From positions 1-25,917 of the IMG/VR virus record IMGVR_UViG_3300031746_000151: a DNA stretch of 25,917 nucleotides; one strand, 5' to 3'. Numbering within the stretch: position 1 is the stretch's first letter; each line of letters opens with the position of its first letter. Made by a program: the position numbers and the translations under genes. The stretch is from a virus. The notes beneath the pieces are model-generated. The model had not been told where the DNA came from. It worked only from the letters and a program-made list of their open reading frames with translations, and did not search any database. Below are positions 11,766-25,830 of the stretch, piece by piece.

Positions 11766-13299
11766 TGTTCACGTCTGTATCAGGGTCGTCCTGATCGTCT
11801 CTGAACTTGTTGGCGCCTGCGTCGTTCCTGCCTTCGATGCCAGACGCTCTGAAGCGCTCCGCACCGTCGCCAAAAAGCGATAGGCAAAGAGCGTCGGCGC
11901 GGTCAGGTGAGCGCCTGATGCGCGACTTGAGATCATCCTTGGTTTCGACGCATCGCCGACCCTTCCCGTCGAACTTGTAGGTGGGAGCGATAATCTCTTG
12001 CACCAGCTTCGCATCATCGGGGATCGCCCCGCCCGAGCGCAAGAACTTGTCGAGCTTGAACCACAATTCGCTGCGGAGGTTCGGGTACTCCTCTTGATTG
12101 GACGCCACCTCTGAGACGTTCACCTCATGAAGGGCAATCTCACGCGCCTTATGAGCGGCGCGCAACGTGTCCGCAACGCCAGCGCCAACGCCAATCGTAT
12201 CGACGTTGACCAGCACACGCTCATGTGGCCCGTGACGCAGCCGCCGCACCATGTTGAGCACGAGACCAGCGACCTCCACGGTATTGTGACCGTGCACGGC
12301 CGTAATAGAGAGGACCTTGCGCCCGCGGCGAGCTACCACCACTGACTCATCGTCGCCGAACCGCGCGACGTCTACGCCCATCGACAGAATCTCGTTCGAG
12401 TCGTCTACGTCAAGATACCTGGCTACTGCCTCTTCTGCGATGGTAAGGCCGATGACAGCGTTCTCCGCTTGCGATGGGAAGTTGCCTTTGACGCGGACTT
12501 GATAGAGCGGACTCTCCTCGCCCCACTCCTCGCGCTTCTCATCGATGTACTGTTGCGTCGCAAGGCCAACGCCAGGTACGCCCTCGACCGCCGCCTGTTC
12601 GCTGGACACGTGGATGAGCTTCCAGAACTCGCGCTTGTCGTTGAAGGCGTCGTAGAAGTAGCCTGACACCTGCGTCGGGTTCGAGAACATGATGAGCCGC
12701 GCACCGCCGGCCCGGTTGCCTTCGATGGCCTCGTACAGCTCCGTTGGGATACCGCTCGCCTCGTCGACGACGAAGAGGATGTGCTGACCGGAGATGCCTG
12801 CCATCTTCTCCGGCTCGTTGGTGTAGAAGCCAACGATCTCGCGACCGTCGTCCCACTGAAGCCCGATCTCTGGCAGCTCCGCGAGATGCCCGCCAAGCGG
12901 CTTCTTCGCGTTGTAGTAGAGATGCTTCATCTCTCGCCACAAGATCGATCTGATCTGGCGGTGCGTCGGCGCGGTCATGATGACGCGCGCGCGCGGGTGC
13001 ACGCTGGCGAACCAGAGCGCGCCGCACACGGCAGACATAGACTTGCCCGTCTTCTGGCCGGACCTGACGGCGACGCGCCAGTCGAGGAGCATGGCCGTCA
13101 AGATCTCTTCCTGGCGTGACCAAAGCGTCACTCCAAGAATGTCACGCGCGAACCCTACCGGGTCATCGCGATACTCGGCGAATCGCTTAGCCCCTGTTGC
13201 GGCTTCCGGGCGGGAGGCGAGCCGTTGTTTCGCCAGGCTTGAGAGATGCGGCAACTTCAAGTACGCGCTCGAATATTTCTGGTGAAAGTTCGCCCTCAA
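11752..13299 (-). CDS. Terminase large subunit (ATPase-nuclease)
   Basis: Up to 515 aa. Terminase drives DNA into the head and cuts it. The ATPase part has Walker A SGQKTGKS (residues 80-87), Walker B ILFVVDEAS (174-182) and a coupling motif MFSNPT (about 204-209). The nuclease part has MGVDVARFGDD (Asp310), VNVDTIGVGAG (Asp367) and SPDRADALCLSLF (Asp469). The 5' end is uncertain: no ATG precedes the ATPase domain. The longest form uses TTG at 13299 and overlaps the small-terminase gene by 113 nt; a TTG at 13254 is an alternative. No clear ribosome site is seen at either, so coupling to the upstream gene is likely. Confidence 0.95.
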   Translation of the reverse strand: MRANFHQKYSSAYLKLPHLSSLAKQRLASRPEAATGAKRFAEYRDDPVGFARDILGVTLWSRQEEILTAMLLDWRVAVRSGQKTGKSMSAVCGALWFASVHPRARVIMTAPTHRQIRSILWREMKHLYYNAKKPLGGHLAELPEIGLQWDDGREIVGFYTNEPEKMAGISGQHILFVVDEASGIPTELYEAIEGNRAGGARLIMFSNPTQVSGYFYDAFNDKREFWKLIHVSSEQAAVEGVPGVGLATQQYIDEKREEWGEESPLYQVRVKGNFPSQAENAVIGLTIAEEAVARYLDVDDSNEILSMGVDVARFGDDESVVVARRGRKVLSITAVHGHNTVEVAGLVLNMVRRLRHGPHERVLVNVDTIGVGAGVADTLRAAHKAREIALHEVNVSEVASNQEEYPNLRSELWFKLDKFLRSGGAIPDDAKLVQEIIAPTYKFDGKGRRCVETKDDLKSRIRRSPDRADALCLSLFGDGAERFRASGIEGRNDAGANKFRDDQDDPDTDVNSVYS

Positions 13300-13873
13300 G
13301 CGCCACGATTAGCGCGTTGAGCTGGATGTTGATCTGGTGCTCCACCTCCACCATGACCTTCGCCCTGAACGCCGGATGAAAGCGCTCCAGGAGGTACATG
13401 TGCCACTTCGGATCGTTGGCAATCGCGGCGATGTCGCTCGCGTTGTGCACGATCTTCCGGCACACCTCCTCCGTGACGCGGTTGTAGTCCTCCAGGAAGA
13501 CGCGGTAGATGGGGTGCGCCTCGTCGTCCTCCGCGAGGCGCACGTAGCTCGCGAACATGCCCTTCGTGATGCCGGCGCCCGAAAGGGCCAGCTCAGGCGG
13601 AGAAAGGCCGCGAATTGAGGAGAGAACCCGCCGCGCGCGGGCCGCCGTCAGCCTGTTTCGCTCCTGCAAGCCGCCGTGATGGTTCTGCCGGCTCGTGTCC
13701 AGGTTCGTCCCGAGGAGCACCACCTCATCGCGCTCGGCGTTGCTGACGATGCCGTCCGTTGCCTCGGCGATCACGCCGTCAGCGTCCCACGACGGCATGA
13801 CCGGATCGCTCACCCGCTCGAAGGTGTCCGCCGTCAGACTAGGCGTGTGCTGTTGCGGCTTCTTCGCTCCCAC
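13187..13873 (-). CDS. Terminase small subunit (likely)
   Basis: 228 aa from GTG at 13873 (MGAKKPQQHTPSLTADTF). Small terminases recognise the packaging site and recruit the large subunit. A DNA-binding-like helical segment (RGLSPPELALSGAGITKGMF, then SYVRLAEDDEAHP) is followed by helices ending in WHMYLLERFHPAFRAKVMVE and INIQLNALIVALEGELSPE, a pattern seen in Mu-like small terminases. It lies directly upstream of the ATPase gene and overlaps it in another frame for 113 nt. No good ribosome site is visible before the GTG, so the true start could be further in. Confidence 0.75.
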   Translation of the reverse strand: MGAKKPQQHTPSLTADTFERVSDPVMPSWDADGVIAEATDGIVSNAERDEVVLLGTNLDTSRQNHHGGLQERNRLTAARARRVLSSIRGLSPPELALSGAGITKGMFASYVRLAEDDEAHPIYRVFLEDYNRVTEEVCRKIVHNASDIAAIANDPKWHMYLLERFHPAFRAKVMVEVEHQINIQLNALIVALEGELSPEIFERVLEVAASLKPGETTARLPPGSRNRG

Positions 13874-13923
13874 GCCCGCTATGGTAGGAGGGGCGGACGG
13901 TCGCGCGCAAGTAGCTGCTTACA

Positions 13924-14040
13924 TCATTCGCGGAACGTAGCGAGCCATATCACAACCAACACACTGAAGATTAGGAGCGAGCCTGTCACGGTGAGAAGGC
14001 AGGCCAGCGTCCAGGCTTGCTTTGGCGGGATGCCGGTCAT
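13924..14040 (-). CDS. 38-aa single-pass membrane protein
   Basis: Short gene MTGIPPKQAWTLACLLTVTG, then SLLIFSVLVVIWLATFRE and a TGA at 13924. Residues 10-34 form one strongly hydrophobic membrane segment, with a short positive/negative C-terminus. The ATG at 14040 has AAAGGAA five nucleotides upstream and overlaps the stop of the gene before it (ATGA), which supports real translation. It lies between the terminase genes and the Cys-rich gene set. It could be a small holin, antiholin or an inner-membrane regulator, but nothing in the sequence decides this. Confidence 0.65.
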   Translation of the reverse strand: MTGIPPKQAWTLACLLTVTGSLLIFSVLVVIWLATFRE

Positions 14041-15508: not shown

Positions 15509-15588
15509 CGCAGACCTCCGGGGGCTATCCCATACCGTTGATGTACGATGCCGGACGCGCATTGGCAATGGCAGTCACGCGCGGTCGT

Positions 15589-15605
15589 GCTAATATGTTG
15601 CGGCA
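15589..15605 (+). promoter_or_regulatory. Extended -10 promoter close to start codon
   Basis: TGCTAATAT (15588-15596) is an extended -10 element with only nine bases to the GTG at 15606. There is no Shine-Dalgarno sequence between, so the transcript would have almost no leader. No convincing -35 is present at 16-18 bp spacing; TTGGCA lies 23 bp upstream. Confidence 0.4.
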
Positions 15606-15833
15606 GTGAGCCCATACCGACAACCTGGAGCGCGCGCACCGTCCGAGCCCCCGCCCCAGCCCCGGCGCTACCGGGCGATGGATGACGACTTCTTCAAGCC
15701 CGTCCCGTACCAGCCGCCCACGCCGCCGTCCCTTGCCGCGGACATCGTGATGGGGCTCCTCGGCGGGGCGATCCAGTCCATCGGGCCGCTCTTCTACATC
15801 GCGGTGGTGGTGGCGTTCATGCTGCGCTGCTAA
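15606..15833 (+). CDS. Proline-rich protein with C-terminal membrane segment
   Basis: 75 aa from GTG 15606 (MSPYRQPGARAPSEPPPQPR) to FYIAVVVAFMLRC. The first 50 residues are Pro/Arg-rich with an acidic DDDFF patch. The last ~30 (ADIVMGLLGGAIQSIGPLFY) include one membrane helix, so it is probably tail-anchored, N-in. An internal ATG at 15678 would give a 51-aa form keeping the membrane part. It points away from the left operon and is followed after 14 nt by a zinc-ribbon gene. A lysis-accessory role (holin/spanin-like) is possible but unsupported. Confidence 0.6.
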   Translation: MSPYRQPGARAPSEPPPQPRRYRAMDDDFFKPVPYQPPTPPSLAADIVMGLLGGAIQSIGPLFYIAVVVAFMLRC

Positions 15834-20530: not shown

Positions 20531-20829
20531 GGTGCCTTCCTAAGCAGCCCCGCCAGTGCCCTGCGGGCTAGGCTGGAGAGGCACTTCGGGCACGTCGCAC
20601 GGTCGTCTGGCACCAAGTGTTGGCGCTCGGCGAACCGCCCGCACAACGCCAGCGTGCGCCTTTTTGGTGACCGCGCGTGCCACCTCCCCTCGCCGGGCAG
20701 CGGCGCCGGCGCGGGGTTGCCACGCTCAAGGTGATCGCCGTGGGCGCGGAGGCACTTCACGCAGAATTGGGCGCCACCTGGCTGGTCGTGGGGGCAGGAA
20801 GAGCACACGCCGCACTGCGTCACGGCCAT
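20527..20829 (-). CDS. Cys-rich zinc-binding protein
   Basis: 100 aa, MAVTQCGVCSSCPHDQPGGA to AGLLRKAP. Cysteine groups CGVCSSCPH, FCVKCLRAHGDH and ATCPKCLSS give at least two zinc sites. The C-terminus is a basic helix. A strong AAGGAGG lies just before the ATG at 20829; the gene overlaps both neighbours by a few bases. Not recognised. Confidence 0.6.
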   Translation of the reverse strand: MAVTQCGVCSSCPHDQPGGAQFCVKCLRAHGDHLERGNPAPAPLPGEGRWHARSPKRRTLALCGRFAERQHLVPDDRATCPKCLSSLARRALAGLLRKAP

Positions 20830-21095
20830 CCCCCCTCCTTATAGCAGGCCCCCACCCTCCTCCTTACCTCCCCCACCCGATCCACCGCCCGCGCCGCCCT
20901 CTCCGCCGCCCTCCCCGCCTCCCGCGCCGCCTCCCACGCCAACCCGCTCCTCCTCCTCACCTCCTCCTCCGCCGCCCGCGCCTCCCGCACCGCCCGCGCC
21001 GCCTCTGCCTCCGCCTCCCGCAACTCATCTCCCACCCCATTCCCGAGCCAACGCCTCACCCCCATCACCACCCACCCCATGACTCCAGGCACCAT
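20820..21095 (-). CDS. Membrane-anchored coiled-coil protein
   Basis: 91 aa from ATG 21095 (MVPGVMGWVVMGVRRWLGNG) to CYKEGGWP. A short hydrophobic N-terminus is followed by a long Ala/Glu/Arg helix (ELREAEAEAARAVREARAAE; AAREAGRAAERAARAVDRVG). The layout resembles inner-membrane coiled-coil spanin subunits, but the anchor is short and no lysis partner is next to it. The coding strand is almost purely purine at the helix. A TAGGGT box lies seven bases before the ATG and there is no ordinary ribosome site. A GTG at 21104 is an alternative start. Confidence 0.55.
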   Translation of the reverse strand: MVPGVMGWVVMGVRRWLGNGVGDELREAEAEAARAVREARAAEEEVRRRSGLAWEAAREAGRAAERAARAVDRVGEVRRRVGACYKEGGWP

Positions 21096-21224
21096 CCCCG
21101 CCACCCTACAAAAGTCTCCCGCGCGCTGTCACCCAGAAGAGAGCGAAAAGAAGGAAAAGGTGGTGACAGCACGCGCTTCCCGATGCGCTTGACCTGGCGC
21201 GGGACCGCGCGCTAGGTGTCGGCG
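21096..21224. promoter_or_regulatory. Divergent promoter region with inverted repeat
   Basis: Gap between the left-pointing coiled-coil gene and the right-pointing hypothetical gene. TAGGGT (complement of 21103-21108) faces left; TTGACC (21189-21194) with TAGGTG (21213-21218) at 18-bp spacing faces right, six bases before the ATG at 21225. GCTGTCACC (21125-21133) and GGTGACAGC (21162-21170) form a 9-bp inverted repeat that could be an operator. Confidence 0.5.
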
Positions 21225-21509
21225 ATGCAATGCAAGGTCCTCCTCGCCGTCAACCCCCACGGCGCCATGGTTGGGCTGTATGCCTCGGGCACGATTGCCG
21301 AAGCTGACCTCAACGCGGGACTCTACAACGCCGGCCTCGAATGGCACGAGGTGCTCGGGAAGCTTGTGGGAACCAATGGCCTCCGCGTCTGGGAAGGGAA
21401 CGTCACCCTCGACGACGAAGGCATCGGCCACTACGCAAAGGGCTCGTTCCGAAAGCTCACCCCCGTTGAGTGGCAATGCGTAGCCGCGGGGAGGTCACCG
21501 TGGCGATGA
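21225..21509 (+). CDS. Hypothetical protein
   Basis: 94 aa from ATG 21225 (MQCKVLLAVNPHGAMVGLYA) to AAGRSPWR. Beta-alpha mixture (GTIAEADLNAGLYNAGLEWH; GLRVWEGNVTLDDEGIGHYA). No Shine-Dalgarno; a -10-like TAGGTG ends six bases before the ATG, and a GTG at 21216 is a less likely start. Ends in an ATGA overlap with the next gene. Confidence 0.6.
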   Translation: MQCKVLLAVNPHGAMVGLYASGTIAEADLNAGLYNAGLEWHEVLGKLVGTNGLRVWEGNVTLDDEGIGHYAKGSFRKLTPVEWQCVAAGRSPWR

Positions 21510-21775
21510 AGAAGTACACGTTCGTCGCCGAAGCCACCATCTCCCTCAGCGTCGATGTCACCGCGTCATGCCTCCTAGAGGCCATCGACAAGGCGCAGTC
21601 CGCTTCCGTCATGTCCCTATGCCACCAGTGCGCCGGCAACCACCACGGCGAATGGAGCACGAGCGGTGAACTCGACTGCGACCCTTCAGGGATGACACTC
21701 GTTGCCACCTATGTCGATGGTGAGGAGGTCGATGAAGCCGCACTCGATGCCGCGAAAAAGAAGTGGCGCGACTGA
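21506..21775 (+). CDS. Hypothetical protein
   Basis: 89 aa from ATG 21506 (MKKYTFVAEATISLSVDVTA) to AAKKKWRD. GGGGAGG lies upstream; a GTG at 21500 would have better spacing to it and add two residues. Small beta sheet start with CLLEAIDKAQSASVMSLC, then a CHQC-type pair near GNHHGEW, so metal binding is possible. Unknown function. Confidence 0.6.
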   Translation: MKKYTFVAEATISLSVDVTASCLLEAIDKAQSASVMSLCHQCAGNHHGEWSTSGELDCDPSGMTLVATYVDGEEVDEAALDAAKKKWRD

Positions 21776-21785
21776 CTCGACGAAT

Positions 21786-21800
21786 TAGTATGATGGGACG
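21786..21800 (+). promoter_or_regulatory. -10 element next to start codon
   Basis: TAGTATGAT (21786-21794) contains two overlapping -10-like hexamers; the ATG at 21801 is six to nine bases on, with no ribosome site between. No good -35 found. Confidence 0.35.
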
Positions 21801-22034
21801 ATGGCATACGGAATCTATTGCACGACGTACTGCAACAAGGGGCACATGGTCAGCAGCGGGCGGCCCGTGGGTCACGAGTGCCGGGTGCTCCTCCCCTCGG
21901 CTTTGCAGGCGGAGATGGACGGCGACTACGAGACGGCGTGCGCGATCCTCGCCGCCCAGCGGCACGTGAAGTACGTGGTGGGACGCGTCTGCGGTCCGGC
22001 TACTGACAGTGACGCGCGATGGCAGAAAACTTGA
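21801..22034 (+). CDS. Small zinc-knuckle protein
   Basis: 77 aa, MAYGIYCTTYCNKGHMVSSG onward. Ligands C-x3-C-x3-H at residues 7, 11 and 15, then GRPVGHECRVL, form a probable single zinc knuckle. The helix LPSALQAEMDGDYETACAIL follows and the tail is polar. Seen in other phages as an uncharacterised small protein in my recollection. Stop overlaps the -35 element of the next gene. Confidence 0.65.
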   Translation: MAYGIYCTTYCNKGHMVSSGRPVGHECRVLLPSALQAEMDGDYETACAILAAQRHVKYVVGRVCGPATDSDARWQKT

Positions 22035-22058
22035 CGTGGCGGATGGCGCTGCGATATT
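22031..22058 (+). promoter_or_regulatory. Sigma70-type promoter, near leaderless
   Basis: TTGACG (22031-22036), 16-bp spacer, then extended -10 TGCGATATT (22050-22058). The ATG at 22067 is eight bases after the -10, so the mRNA would begin at or 1-2 bases before the start codon. This is the best-formed promoter in the window. Confidence 0.6.
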
Positions 22059-22066
22059 GAGGCGCC

Positions 22067-22555
22067 ATGGGCTACACAACGAGATTCGATGGTCACTTCA
22101 ATATCTGGCCGCCGCTCAGTTGTACGCGGGTGGCCGCGTTTGGGAGTCAAGACTGGGACACCCTGCCAAACAATCCGGGTGGCCACATGCAGTGGACAGT
22201 CGCCAAGGACGGCATGCGGCTCAAGTGGGACGAGGAGGAGAAGTTCTACGACTACGCCAAGTGGCTTCAATGCATCATTGATGGCTGGTTCACGCCGCGC
22301 GCCCATTCCGTCTACGGCCAAGTCACATGGCAAGGCGAAGACTTTGCGGACCGCGGCGTCCTCCGCGTCGTCAATGGCCGCGTCCAGAGCCTCCCGCACG
22401 TGGACACTAAACCTGGCGACAGCCCAGAAGAGCGGCTCGCTTACCTCGTGACCTTCCTGAAGGACACGATGACGTCAATCGCCAATGACGATGGTCCAGA
22501 CGGGCGCGCCTTCGCGACGTTGATCGCCAAGACGCTCGCCAACGTAGGCCAGTAG
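22067..22555 (+). CDS. Uncharacterised phage protein with GYTTRFDG start
   Basis: 162 aa, MGYTTRFDGHFNIWPPLSCT to LIAKTLANVGQ. The order TTRFDGHFNI, MRLKWDEEEKFYDYAKWLQC, SVYGQVTWQGEDFADRG and a beta end LRVVNGRVQSLP is that of a common phage protein family of unknown function. The C-terminus adds a helix (LAYLVTFLKDTMTSIANDDG). The next gene starts directly on its stop. Confidence 0.7.
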   Translation: MGYTTRFDGHFNIWPPLSCTRVAAFGSQDWDTLPNNPGGHMQWTVAKDGMRLKWDEEEKFYDYAKWLQCIIDGWFTPRAHSVYGQVTWQGEDFADRGVLRVVNGRVQSLPHVDTKPGDSPEERLAYLVTFLKDTMTSIANDDGPDGRAFATLIAKTLANVGQ

Positions 22556-22981
22556 ATGTCGTGCACGGCGATGCCACATGGTCCGTGGACGGAGGAGCCG
22601 GATAGGTTGGCAGGCTTCACCGCCGCCGGCTTCGCCTACCTCATCACGCGCCACGAGATGATGGGGCACTTGATTGGCCTCGTCGCCCTCCCCACCACCC
22701 ACCCGCTCTACGGCGTCCACTACCACAACCTCGCCGATATCTCCGTCCACGGCGGCCTCTCCTTCTCCGGCCCGCGCGAGGACCACTGCCACGCGTTTCT
22801 CGAACTAGTGCGCCAGTCGGCCTGGTGGGTCGGCTTCCACTGCGCCCACGCGGGCGACCGCTGCCCCATCATTCTAGGCAGTGGTGTGTACCGCGACATG
22901 GCGTTCGTCAAAGCCGAGGTCGAATCCCTCGCCAACCAACTCGCAGACCGCGCGTCCGTCACCGTAGGGCCGACACGATGA
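22556..22981 (+). CDS. Uncharacterised phage protein with HGGLSFSG motif
   Basis: 141 aa, MSCTAMPHGPWTEEPDRLAG to SVTVGPTR. LPTTHPLYGVHYHNLADISV and HGGLSFSG, then WWVGFHCAHAGDRCP, are the recurring motifs of a small phage family with His and Cys residues that look like a metal centre. The start codon abuts the preceding stop; the end overlaps the next ATG (ATGA). Function unknown. Confidence 0.7.
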   Translation: MSCTAMPHGPWTEEPDRLAGFTAAGFAYLITRHEMMGHLIGLVALPTTHPLYGVHYHNLADISVHGGLSFSGPREDHCHAFLELVRQSAWWVGFHCAHAGDRCPIILGSGVYRDMAFVKAEVESLANQLADRASVTVGPTR

Positions 22982-23325
22982 AGAAAGCGAAGCCTCCGGT
23001 GGTCGCGCCCCAAGATGGTGCCATCACCTGGGCGTGCCCGACCTGCGGAGCGGAGGCGCATAAGCATGGGCGCGGCGGCAGCGACGCGTGCGTGGCCCGC
23101 GAAGGCCGGTGCGATGGCTTCGTCTGCGAGTGCGACGATTTTGAGGGGGGAGACCATGGCGTCTGCTTCGCCAACCCCTGCACCAATGCGGTCTGCTGCC
23201 ACTGCGGCTGGCAGGGACAGTTCCCGCAGAAGCCGAAAGGGCTCCAGGCGTGGGAGAAGAAAGCCCTCGACGCCGGCTGGACCCCACCCCATTCACGCTT
23301 CCCTACCATCCAAACCGGCAAGTAG
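22978..23325 (+). CDS. Multi-cysteine zinc-binding protein
   Basis: 115 aa from ATG 22978 (MKKAKPPVVAPQDGAITWAC) to FPTIQTGK. Cys groups: WACPTCGAEAHKH, CVAREGRCDGFVCECDDF, CFANPCTNAVCCHCGWQG. At least eleven cysteines, probably two or three zinc sites. Lys-rich at the N-terminus. Likely nucleic-acid or protein binding; not recognised. Confidence 0.65.
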   Translation: MKKAKPPVVAPQDGAITWACPTCGAEAHKHGRGGSDACVAREGRCDGFVCECDDFEGGDHGVCFANPCTNAVCCHCGWQGQFPQKPKGLQAWEKKALDAGWTPPHSRFPTIQTGK

Positions 23326-23508
23326 TGCGTGTCTCTCCACGCCGTCACACCCTCTGCCTTTTTCGCCTTGTGTAGGCACCTCTACCTCTGGCAGCTTGAG
23401 AGAGCCGACTAGCTGGTCTTCGTCGGACTCTAGACCGTCATGCCCGCGAACGGGATTTCCCAGCGGTCTTAGACCCCCACCATCTCACCCCACGAGAGAG
23501 CCGTCAAG
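23326..23508 (+). other. 183-bp intergenic region with nested hairpins
   Basis: No gene found. CCGAC (23405-23409) pairs with GTCGG (23422-23426). AGACCG (23432-23437) pairs with CGGTCT (23464-23469) and encloses CCCG-CGAA-CGGG at 23443-23454, a tetraloop hairpin. Ribosome-site-like GAGAGAG (about 23494-23500) precedes the next ATG. Could be a 5' leader or a small RNA. Confidence 0.4.
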
Positions 23509-23721
23509 ATGAGCGCTCCGCATGACCATTGGGACGGTGTGACCCCGCTCTCCCACGACGACCTTGGCACGCTCGCGCACGCCTACCTGCTGCTTGGTCA
23601 CATGCGCCGCGGCGCGTTGGCGTGCGAAGATCCCAAGTCGTTGCGGGTCTTCGAGCAAGAAATGCAGCGCATCCAACTCGTCATCGAGTGGCACGACGCG
23701 CGCGGCCTCCTCCCCTTCTGA
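23509..23721 (+). CDS. Small helical protein
   Basis: 70 aa, MSAPHDHWDGVTPLSHDDLG to ARGLLPF. Two or three helices (LAHAYLLLGHMRRGALACED; LRVFEQEMQRIQLVIEWHDA). A GAGAGAG ribosome-like site precedes the ATG, unlike the other plus-strand unit heads here. Convergent with the Acb2/Tad1-like gene, 7 nt apart. Function unknown. Confidence 0.65.
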   Translation: MSAPHDHWDGVTPLSHDDLGTLAHAYLLLGHMRRGALACEDPKSLRVFEQEMQRIQLVIEWHDARGLLPF

Positions 23722-23728
23722 GCCACCC

Positions 23729-23962
23729 CTACTTCGCGATCAGCGCCCGTACCGCCGCATCCTTCGACTCCAAGAGCTTCCGTAGCGCCACCGTCCTCTC
23801 AGCATTCTGCGGCAACGCCTGCATCAGTTGGTGCGCCATGTCGTGGAAGGGCTTCGAGACCACCTGCAAGTGGCCGGGTAGGTGCTCGAAGGCGAAGAAC
23901 TGAAGGATGTGCTCCACGCGCGCAGTGCGAAAGGTGAGAGAAAGATCTTCGTCATTTGCCAT
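23729..23962 (-). CDS. Acb2/Tad1-like small protein (candidate anti-defence)
   Basis: 77 aa from ATG 23962 (MANDEDLSLTFRTARVEHIL), set by AGAGGT seven bases upstream. The C-terminal ~55 residues (FAFEHLPGHLQVVSKPFHDM, AHQLMQALPQNAERTVALRK, then LLESKDAAVRA) follow the layout of the small helical hook domain found in Acb2/Tad1 phage proteins: an aromatic-Pro start, a helix, LP-x-x-x-ER, then an ALxxL...A helix. Proteins of this group bind cyclic-nucleotide or cyclic ADP-ribose signals and block CBASS or Thoeris. Sequestering activity here is an inference; many homologues are uncharacterised. Confidence 0.5.
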   Translation of the reverse strand: MANDEDLSLTFRTARVEHILQFFAFEHLPGHLQVVSKPFHDMAHQLMQALPQNAERTVALRKLLESKDAAVRALIAK

Positions 23963-24230
23963 GTCGTTCACCTCTTGTATTCCATCGTTCGATTAGTGGC
24001 TTATGTTCCTCAGACCGCATCTCGATGTCGCACTCAGGGCAACCAATGGTGAGCCAGCTTACCATGTTGTGGCTCCAGAGTGACTCGTCGGTGACCTCGT
24101 ACGACCTAGCCGGACCACCGCAAAACGGGCATGGGGAAAGCCTCATCCGTTGAGCCAGCTTATCACGCGCCACGAGGTATGGTGGCCTTCGTCATTCGCG
24201 CCCGCACCGCCGCGTCCTTCGACTCCAAAA
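23743..24230 (-). repeat. Two copies of a 33-bp segment at the 3' ends of neighbouring genes
   Basis: 23743-23775 and 24198-24230 agree in 30 of 33 bases (differences at three positions, mostly silent). Both encode LESKDAAVRA near the C-terminus of otherwise unrelated proteins, with the Lar-like gene between them. Confidence 0.7.
23952..24146 (-). CDS. Lar-like restriction alleviation zinc protein
   Basis: 64 aa from ATG 24146 (MRLSPCPFCGGPARSYEVTD) to ERHGK. The order LSPCPFCGGPA, TIGCPECDIEM and RWNTRG is that of Lar-family proteins (two CxxC knuckles and a terminal WNTR). Lar of the Rac prophage modulates type I restriction so that unmodified DNA survives; most phage homologues are untested. 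A GTG at 24173 would add nine residues. It overlaps the Acb2/Tad1-like start by 11 nt, so the two are probably co-translated. Confidence 0.7.
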   Translation of the reverse strand: MRLSPCPFCGGPARSYEVTDESLWSHNMVSWLTIGCPECDIEMRSEEHKPLIERWNTRGERHGK

Positions 24231-24573
24231 ACTGCCTCCGCGCCAACCGAGCACGCCCCTCCTCGTCTAGGTTGTGCATCCCGAAGGCCACCCCCTCCAC
24301 CACCGGCTCCGCCCTCCGAAGCGCAATGCGATACAGGATGAGATAACCGATGAGGTCCAGCACCGTGTCCTCCGCCTGAGACTCGTCCCCGCGCTGAAGA
24401 CGGGAAAGCTTGTCGTCTATCCTCACCCGTATCTGCTCCGACGTCGACGCCCGCGAAAACACCCTCAGAGGCGACAAGGCCGAATCCCCGTAGGACAGAT
24501 TCTTGGCGAGTAGCATCGCCTTGAGCGCGTCACACTCCGCGCCGATGTCCGCCTGCGTGTCGTGGTCAGCCAT
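24163..24573 (-). CDS. DUF1599 / nucleotide-modification-associated domain protein
   Basis: 136 aa from ATG 24573 (MADHDTQADIGAECDALKAM), with GAGG upstream. Motifs KNLSYGDS (residues 24-31), RIDDKLSRL (51-59) and EDTVLDLIGYLIL (68-80) match DUF1599 / Nmad1-type proteins, often found in phages near DNA base-modification or nucleotide genes. The C-terminal ~20 residues (RRQFLESKDAAVRARMTKAT) are shared with the Acb2/Tad1-like gene, not with the family as I know it. Reaction unknown. Confidence 0.7.
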   Translation of the reverse strand: MADHDTQADIGAECDALKAMLLAKNLSYGDSALSPLRVFSRASTSEQIRVRIDDKLSRLQRGDESQAEDTVLDLIGYLILYRIALRRAEPVVEGVAFGMHNLDEEGRARLARRQFLESKDAAVRARMTKATIPRGA

Positions 24574-24624
24574 GGGAGCCTCGTGGTCACTCACCGAATT
24601 TTCTCCATGATGTGGCACCCGCGG

Positions 24625-24852
24625 TCACTCGCCTGCCTCCTCCGTTAGAAACTGCATGTAGCTCGCCATGACGTTGAGCGCACGCGCCCTCCTTCGGAAG
24701 GCGATGTGTTGTTCCCGTGTCGAAAGCTTCTCTGCCAGCTCACGCACATCCGCTATCGCCCGCACCCGCTCCTCCGGCGCCATGTTCAGCCAATCGTGCA
24801 ACGCGAGATGCGACTTCTTATCGGCTTCGAGGATCATCAGTGTGGTGCTCAT
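24625..24852 (-). CDS. Small helical protein
   Basis: 75 aa, MSTTLMILEADKKSHLALHD to LTEEAGE. Helical and charged (WLNMAPEERVRAIADVRELA; KLSTREQHIAFRRRARALNV). AGGGAAGAG lies directly before the ATG, which also overlaps the stop of the upstream gene (ATGA). No family recognised. Confidence 0.65.
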   Translation of the reverse strand: MSTTLMILEADKKSHLALHDWLNMAPEERVRAIADVRELAEKLSTREQHIAFRRRARALNVMASYMQFLTEEAGE

Positions 24853-25088
24853 CTCTTCCCTAGAGAGGCTATGAGTGAGGTGTACTCCCGCTCCGTTATC
24901 TTCACCCTCTCCTCATCGTTCCACTGCGCCCTGGTGTACTCCCGCTCCGTTATCTTCACCCTCTCCTCATCGTTCCACTGCGCCCTGAAGCCACGATGGT
25001 CCCCCTCGTGCCCCTCCGGCTTGACGCAGAACACCACCCCTCCACGCGTGGCGTAGATGGCTGGACACTGGCGCTCTCCCTCCTTCAT
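24849..25088 (-). CDS. Small protein with Cys-His motif and internal 18-residue tandem repeat
   Basis: 79 aa from ATG 25088 (MKEGERQCPAIYATRGGVVF) to SLIASLGKR. The N-terminal half has CPAI and CVKPEGHEGDHRGF, a C-x-KPxGHxGxHxG pattern seen in small phage proteins. The second half is RAQWNDEERVKITEREYT twice in tandem. A G-rich, GGAGG-containing stretch precedes the ATG. Without the duplication the protein would have 61 residues. Function unknown. Confidence 0.65.
   Translation of the reverse strand: MKEGERQCPAIYATRGGVVFCVKPEGHEGDHRGFRAQWNDEERVKITEREYTRAQWNDEERVKITEREYTSLIASLGKR
24879..24986 (-). repeat. Perfect 54-bp tandem duplication
   Basis: 24879-24932 and 24933-24986 are identical over all 54 bases. 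The unit is a multiple of three, so it adds 18 codons without breaking the frame. Identity at every base points to a recent event or a selected length change. Confidence 0.95.
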
Positions 25089-25306
25089 CCCGCCTTCCTC
25101 CCATCCTTGCACGCGCGACAGTAATGCTTCACACCCTCACCATCCACCACTTCCACCCGCGTCCACCCCGGCGGTACCGCGCTATGCCGCAACCACCCCG
25201 CTCGATGCCCCGCCGCCGTCTCCATCGCACGCTTCGCCCCGCACCCGTCACATACCCGATGGCTCGCCCATGCCCCACGCGCCGTGTCCTCCCATGCCGT
25301 GCTCAT
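25085..25306 (-). CDS. Zinc-ribbon protein, paralogue of the gene at 20318-20530
   Basis: 73 aa from ATG 25306 (MSTAWEDTARGAWASHRVCD) to ACKDGRKAG. HRVCDGCGAK and VKHYCRACKDG form a four-Cys zinc site; PPGWTRVEV lies between. Same layout as the gene 4.8 kb to the left. Start overlaps the upstream stop (ATGA); a longer form from an ATG at about 25321 is less likely. Function unknown. Confidence 0.7.
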   Translation of the reverse strand: MSTAWEDTARGAWASHRVCDGCGAKRAMETAAGHRAGWLRHSAVPPGWTRVEVVDGEGVKHYCRACKDGRKAG

Positions 25307-25596
25307 GGCGTCCGCGACCAACCCATGCAGTCGTTGACGCTGACACGGTGGTCGTAACCCGTCTCCTGCTCAAAGTCCTGAACCACGAACACGTCCCCAA
25401 TACGTGATGCGCCCGTGACCCGAAACCGATCGGCGCGCGCGTTCCCGGCTACGGAGCAGTACAAACGATGCTCTCCCATCATCGCCTTGAACTTGACCTT
25501 CAAGATGGCCGGCAAACGGAAGTAGTTGAGCACCCACGACGCGTACACATCCGTCGTCGGATCATCGATGAAGTCGTCAACGTGGTCGTGTGCCAT
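25303..25596 (-). CDS. Hypothetical protein
   Basis: 97 aa, MAHDHVDDFIDDPTTDVYAS to CMGWSRTP. A helical start (VLNYFRLPAILKVKFKAMMG) is followed by beta-like RLYCSVAGNARADRFRVTGA and SRIGDVFVVQDFEQETGYDH. A TAGGGT box lies nine bases before the ATG at 25596, and there is no ribosome site. It heads the right-end minus-strand unit. Not recognised. Confidence 0.6.
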   Translation of the reverse strand: MAHDHVDDFIDDPTTDVYASWVLNYFRLPAILKVKFKAMMGEHRLYCSVAGNARADRFRVTGASRIGDVFVVQDFEQETGYDHRVSVNDCMGWSRTP

Positions 25597-25638
25597 TGGG
25601 CGGAGACCCTAGCAAAAAAAAAGGCGTAGGGTGAAGCC
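25597..25638. promoter_or_regulatory. Divergent TAGGGT boxes around an A9 tract
   Basis: TAGGGT on the minus strand (25606-25611) and on the plus strand (25627-25632) face away from each other, nine and six bases from the two divergent start codons, with A9 (25614-25622) between. Either paired -10 elements of leaderless promoters or an inverted-repeat protein site. No -35 elements are obvious. Confidence 0.5.
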
Positions 25639-25830
25639 ATGGCAGCGAAGAGAACGAGGAAGCCTAAGCGAGTCCTGGTCTACGTCAGCTTCGAGGTGGA
25701 GCGTGACATCCTCCCGCCACACGATGAACTGCGCGCGGCTTTCTATGGCGCCCTCGATGGCGTGCTGAAGGTCGGCGAGTGCTACTACGCAGGCAAGCTC
25801 GGAACGAAGTTCGTCCGTCACGCTTCGTAG
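25639..25830 (+). CDS. Small basic protein
   Basis: 63 aa, MAAKRTRKPKRVLVYVSFEV to GTKFVRHAS. Basic N-terminus (Lys/Arg-rich) then beta/helix (ILPPHDELRAAFYGALDGVL; VGECYYAGKLGTKFV). The ATG is six bases from a TAGGGT box and has no Shine-Dalgarno. Could bind nucleic acid; not recognised. The 87 bp to the window end hold no gene I can support. Confidence 0.6.
   Translation: MAAKRTRKPKRVLVYVSFEVERDILPPHDELRAAFYGALDGVLKVGECYYAGKLGTKFVRHAS

Follow-up and report, generated by a model that had tools for sequence, protein, structure and literature searches.

Predicted sigma-70-type promoters placed for leaderless or near-leaderless mRNAs at most transcription unit heads of an uncultured contractile-tailed phage

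Gene layout and boxes at the unit heads

The IMG/VR virus record IMGVR_UViG_3300031746_000151 was analysed over its entire length (the window; 25,917 bases, linear, 65% G+C) for -10-like hexamers such as TAGGGT that lie 6-9 nucleotides (nt) before the first gene of a transcription unit, a placement suggesting mRNAs with little or no leader. The record is probably a fragment of a virus genome, and neither tRNA genes nor matches to Rfam families were found in the window. A minus-strand run extending from 13873 down to approximately 1745 encodes the large terminase (TerL), portal, head protease, major capsid protein and tail sheath, and the virus therefore has a contractile tail.

All seven boxes on which the original prediction rested were found in place when the sequence was re-read. 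An eighth, TACCAT, lies 7 nt before GTG 13873 (-), where the terminase-to-tail run begins, so that the feature is not confined to the accessory region, in which it was first noted. The head/tail module promoter predicted here is TTGCGC-18-TACCAT (13881..13910, minus strand; the -35 hexamer, spacer length and -10 hexamer are given in this order throughout). The gene that it precedes (13187..13873, minus strand; 228 amino acids, aa) overlaps TerL and is a candidate small terminase, with 59% identity to a gene of a related phage contig, G001. A short motif, TPSL or GPSL, was seen by eye to be common to both proteins ahead of the next in-frame start, and the GTG 13873 start agrees with this. Just upstream of the promoter, 13922-14040 (minus strand) is a small reading frame of approximately 38 aa with one hydrophobic stretch, the product of which could be a membrane protein.

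The other boxed heads are as follows. GTG 15606 (+), which begins a 75 aa gene with no family match (15606..15833), has a TAATAT box at 9 nt in the putative promoter ATGGCA-17-TGCTAATAT (15568..15596, plus strand), which carries an extended -10, and a second box, TATGTT, at 6 nt. ATG 21095 (-) begins an alanine-rich, repetitive gene of approximately 91 aa (20823..21095) and is preceded at 7 nt by GTGACA-18-TAGGGT (21103..21132, minus strand); an alternative start, GTG 21104, falls inside the box. On the opposite strand, TTGACC-18-TAGGTG (21189..21218) ends 6 nt before ATG 21225, the start of a gene of approximately 94 aa with no family match (21225..21509). The next boxed gene (21801..22034, plus strand; 77 aa) lies 25 nt downstream of the preceding gene and has TATGAT (21789..21794) 6 nt before its ATG, with an overlapping TAGTAT at 9 nt and no good -35. 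ATG 22067 (+) follows at 8 nt a predicted promoter TTGACG-16-GATATT (22031..22058), in which TG stands ahead of the -10 and the stop codon of the preceding gene runs into the -35. The start is supported by the profile of family phrog_38666, whose alignment with this gene (22067..22555) begins at residue 1. Finally, two interlocking putative promoters would serve a divergent pair near the right end. TTCACC-18-TAGGGT (25606..25635, minus strand) lies 9 nt before ATG 25596 of a 97 aa gene (25303..25596), and GAGACC-18-TAGGGT (25603..25632, plus strand), with a weak -35, lies 6 nt before ATG 25639 of a 63 aa gene (25639..25830). Neither product has a family match.

No TANNNT was found 5-9 nt before heads 15508, 15215, 17259 and 23509. 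Head 15508 combines a good Shine-Dalgarno site with a leadered promoter, TTGCCA-17-TACATC, which lies 31 nt upstream of the ATG.

Restriction of the boxes to unit heads

The 55 genes listed were divided into 12 heads, defined as genes that come after a change of strand or after at least approximately 30 nt of same-strand gap, and 43 internal genes. One internal entry, 18364, was a typing error that matches no start codon; it lacks a box, and the outcome is unchanged. Six of the 12 heads carry TANNNT 5-9 nt from the start codon, as against 0 of the 43 internal genes (Fisher p = 3.2e-5); heads 21225 and 22067 have near-matches only. The check set beforehand was whether the box is equally frequent before internal genes, and its outcome favours the idea. 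Within the 45 nt upstream of the heads, TANNNT is found at 6, 7 and 9 nt, and elsewhere just once, at 36 nt. Moving 21801, with its gap of only 25 nt, to the internal class gives p = 7e-4, and additionally replacing 21095 by GTG 21104 gives p = 0.004.

Chance combined with selective noticing, with AT-rich intergenic gaps yielding TANNNT by luck, could also produce boxes of this kind. TAGGGT itself is not over-represented (5 copies in the window, 2.3 expected), although 3 of the 5 copies sit 6-9 nt before unit-head starts, which is the unusual part, and a strict scan of the region for the sigma-70 consensus returned 1 site against 1.4 expected in shuffles, no better than chance. Shuffles of the gaps that preserve composition fail, however, to give the count, the position or the -35 partners: shuffled head upstreams have a mean of 0.39 TANNNT at 5-9 nt, and 0 of 20,000 trials reach 6. 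Luck is thus a highly improbable explanation.

-35 partners of the boxes

Hexamers resembling -35 elements lie mostly 16-18 nt upstream of the boxes, beyond what chance provides. Over the eight boxed heads, -35 matches sum to 32 of 48, compared with 21.0 +/- 2.3 in shuffles (0 of 5,000 as high). When -35 and -10 were scored jointly over the upstream 60 nt, 10 of 12 heads had their best site at 5-9 nt, as against a mean of 1.2 heads and at most 5 in 300 shuffles, and 3 of 38 internal genes. When the window was scanned on both strands with gene positions ignored, 9 high-scoring promoter-like sites emerged, 5 of which sit 7-9 nt before a unit-head start (p ~3e-13). Judged by sequence, the boxes are -10 elements. 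This reading, which had been put forward in the original prediction, is supported in that it covers all of the boxes whatever their middle bases (TAGGGT, TACCAT, TATGAT, TAATAT), together with the -35 hexamers.

Shine-Dalgarno sites

A strong Shine-Dalgarno site (-5.5 kcal/mol or better) precedes none of the 8 boxed heads and 17 of the 43 internal genes (p = 0.04). Across all 12 heads the difference from internal genes is not significant (p = 0.15), partly because heads 15508 and 15215 carry good sites. The earlier description of the boxed heads as having no Shine-Dalgarno site holds for 13873 and 15606 but is too strong for 21095, 22067 and 25639, where weak purine stretches were found (-4.7 to -5.4 kcal/mol).

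TAGGG has also been considered as a weak Shine-Dalgarno site on transcripts with ordinary leaders. Its position 6-9 nt from the start codon suits a ribosome site, weak pairing with the anti-Shine-Dalgarno sequence is possible, and the internal genes 22978 and 22556 are preceded by TAGGGC and TAGGCC, as 24852 is by CTAGGGAAGAG. This accounts for the TAGGG boxes only. Half of the boxed heads lack AGGG (TACCAT, TAATAT, TATGAT, GATATT) and cannot pair, yet the spacing is kept, and the final T of a -10, present in the TANNNT heads, is missing from the internal TAGG sequences, including those at 22978 and 22556. Duplex energies are moreover weaker at boxed heads than at internal genes, and the -35 hexamers at 16-18 nt are left unexplained. 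A ribosome-site role is therefore unlikely.

Divergent control regions

Between the divergent promoters of 21095 and 21225 lies an inverted repeat, CGCGCGCTGTCACC / GGTGACAGCACGCG, with 14-nt arms at 21120-21133 and 21162-21175 that are 28 nt apart. The -35 of the 21095 promoter lies within its left arm, and the repeat is a candidate operator. A role as a repeated operator was rejected, as no further copies beyond chance were found. In the second region (25603-25635), the two TAGGGT promoters each have a -35 that overlaps the -10 of the other, around a run of nine A/T. No repressor domain was found in the four products of these two pairs.

Interlocking of the 25596/25639 promoters would allow only one to be occupied at a time. 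If the mRNAs of both pairs begin on or beside the codon, which of the two genes is translated would depend solely on the promoter chosen. That both regions act as leaderless switches of this kind is a tentative suggestion, and a rather doubtful one.

A divergent pair with an ATG 6 nt downstream of each promoter (TTGACG-16-CATGAT and TAGGCT) is also present in a related phage contig (L042:6085-6190).

Phage relatives and predicted host

No near DNA matches were found in the phage collection or among sequenced phages. Closest to this phage are G001 (28.9 kb; 78% in the sheath and 72% in the terminase), G002 (14.4 kb; 69-70% in the sheath) and G013 (48 kb; 56-58% in the sheath). Relatives sought through gene 22067 numbered none, and through gene 22556 one, which is distant. 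G001 has TTGACC-16-TAGTGT 9 nt before ATG 23301 (-), and G002 has TTGACA-18-TATAGG 10 nt before an ATG.

Relatives of the large terminase, at 45-48% identity, were found in Polyangiaceae/Myxococcales assemblies and, at 42%, in one Actinomycetales assembly; a first scan of genome contigs with TerL had returned no relative. With the tail-sheath profile, distant relatives were detected in the phylum of the Polyangiaceae assembly, taken as Myxococcota from the record title (11 of 379 genomes), and not in the phylum of the actinobacterium (0 of 396 genomes). One tail-sheath locus in the Myxococcota-assigned genomes also has capsid and portal matches, both weak. Together these suggest Myxococcota as a likely host.

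Promoter placement was then counted in the class of the Polyangiaceae genome with the TerL relative (the class of G009; 39 genomes, of which 36 were counted and three with many matches to a backward-read control pattern were set aside). TTGAC-N17-19-TANNNT occurs 745 times 5-8 nt before an ATG; the count is 360 at 25-28 nt and 69 when the pattern is read backwards. An excess at 5-8 nt was seen in 34 of the 36 genomes, the reverse in none, and a spacing of 7 is the commonest among 39 listed examples. Of the 34 TAGGGT-to-ATG distances within 0-30 nt in the Actinomycetales assembly, 21 are 6 or 7 nt. The layout is therefore normal for such hosts, and the counts suggest that leaderless genes are widespread in the Myxococcota class around Polyangiaceae.

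These distances also bear on whether the promoters, if real, might instead give a usable short leader (2-10 nt), or whether start-site choice might fall further downstream, with translation from a later in-frame start that has its own Shine-Dalgarno site. The box-to-codon distance is 8-9 nt at 22067, 15606 and 25596 and reaches 10 nt in G002, and several boxed genes contain further in-frame ATG or GTG codons. Against this, the boxed starts of 22067 and 13873 agree with the family profile and with the motif shared with G001, respectively, and 5 of the 8 boxes lie at 6-7 nt, the mode in the tested Myxococcota class and in published leaderless sets. Such an arrangement is judged marginally less probable even than a ribosome-site role for TAGGG.

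Repeats in the window

Two repeats were observed elsewhere. At the left end (1370-1598), a 120-bp unit is present 1.9 times at 86% identity, and gene 24849-25088 (-) includes an exact 54-bp tandem duplication (24879-24987) of 18 codons, in frame.

Proposed mechanism

We infer, with a probability of roughly 80%, that most unit heads in this phage have host-type sigma-70 promoters placed for leaderless or near-leaderless mRNAs of the first gene. Located 6-9 nt ahead of the codon that starts a unit's first gene, the boxes would be the -10 elements of ordinary sigma-70/sigma-A promoters, mostly with a TTGAC-like -35 16-18 nt upstream. RNA polymerase would then start 0-3 nt before the AUG or GUG: a spacing of 6-7 nt would put the start of the transcript on the codon's first base or 1 nt upstream of it, and a spacing of 8-9 nt would put it 2 or 3 nt upstream. 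The first gene would be translated from a leaderless or near-leaderless mRNA, a step that rests on published leaderless systems, and many downstream genes of the unit would use Shine-Dalgarno sites or overlapping stop and start codons.

Several observations weigh against this interpretation. A strict pair of TTGAC and TANNNT is absent from the window, each promoter being good in one half. Heads were classified with the claim known, although the gap and strand rule also admitted unboxed heads, and no homologue confirms the choice between starts 21095/21104 or 21216/21225. The host prediction comes from distant protein matches only. Contigs of the three nearest relatives are almost wholly one-stranded, and conservation there is thin, amounting to single cases, because unit heads are few. 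In automated gene calls for approximately 30 related records, the box was found at 26 of 244 heads and 31 of 323 internal genes, with no general excess; the signal is small because starts and heads are poorly placed in such calls and the hosts differ.

Phage annotation usually places starts by Shine-Dalgarno sites. For phages that have a high G+C content and Myxococcota-like hosts, both the start codon and the unit head would be better marked by a TANNNT 6-9 nt upstream of a codon, and the box layout may offer a cheap route from sequence to a transcription map of uncultured phages.

Comparison with known leaderless systems

Leaderless genes led by TANNNT are known from Actinobacteria, Deinococcus and delta-proteobacteria. 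Zheng et al. (2011) described TANNNT approximately 12 bp before the start as marking leaderless bacterial genes, and reported that first genes are leaderless while distal genes are Shine-Dalgarno-led; in delta-Proteobacteria, such genes were present in 8 of 33 genomes and made up 15.8% on average there (PMC3160421). In most cases the first T of the phage TANNNT likewise stands 12-13 bp upstream of the start, the boxes occur at unit heads with Shine-Dalgarno sites more at internal genes, and the phage shares the high G+C form with free middle bases. Unlike that chromosomal set, this is an uncultured contractile-tailed phage known from sequence alone.

In Deinococcus-Thermus, TANNNT lies mostly 6-7 bp before the open reading frame, with T1, A2 and T6 nearly invariant, and the Deinococcus box was found by experiment to function as a -10 and to give leaderless mRNA (Zhong et al.; PMC12340547). 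The phage TANNNT is similarly close to 6-7 nt before the start. It differs from the experimentally studied motif in being read from sequence and in having recognisable -35 partners at several sites.

Among phages, PY54 has leaderless cI and cro mRNAs that arise from divergent promoters and start at the AUG, with an operator nearby, and lambda cI is also leaderless (PMC4488713). The pairs 21095/21225 and 25596/25639 are similarly divergent but, unlike in PY54, no repressor-like protein was found at either pair, and the head of the structural module is also predicted to be of the leaderless type. This mode of starting genes is already known and well documented in other bacteria, and what is new is its predicted occurrence in this phage, which appears to fit the known TANNNT-led leaderless systems in every respect that sequence can test.

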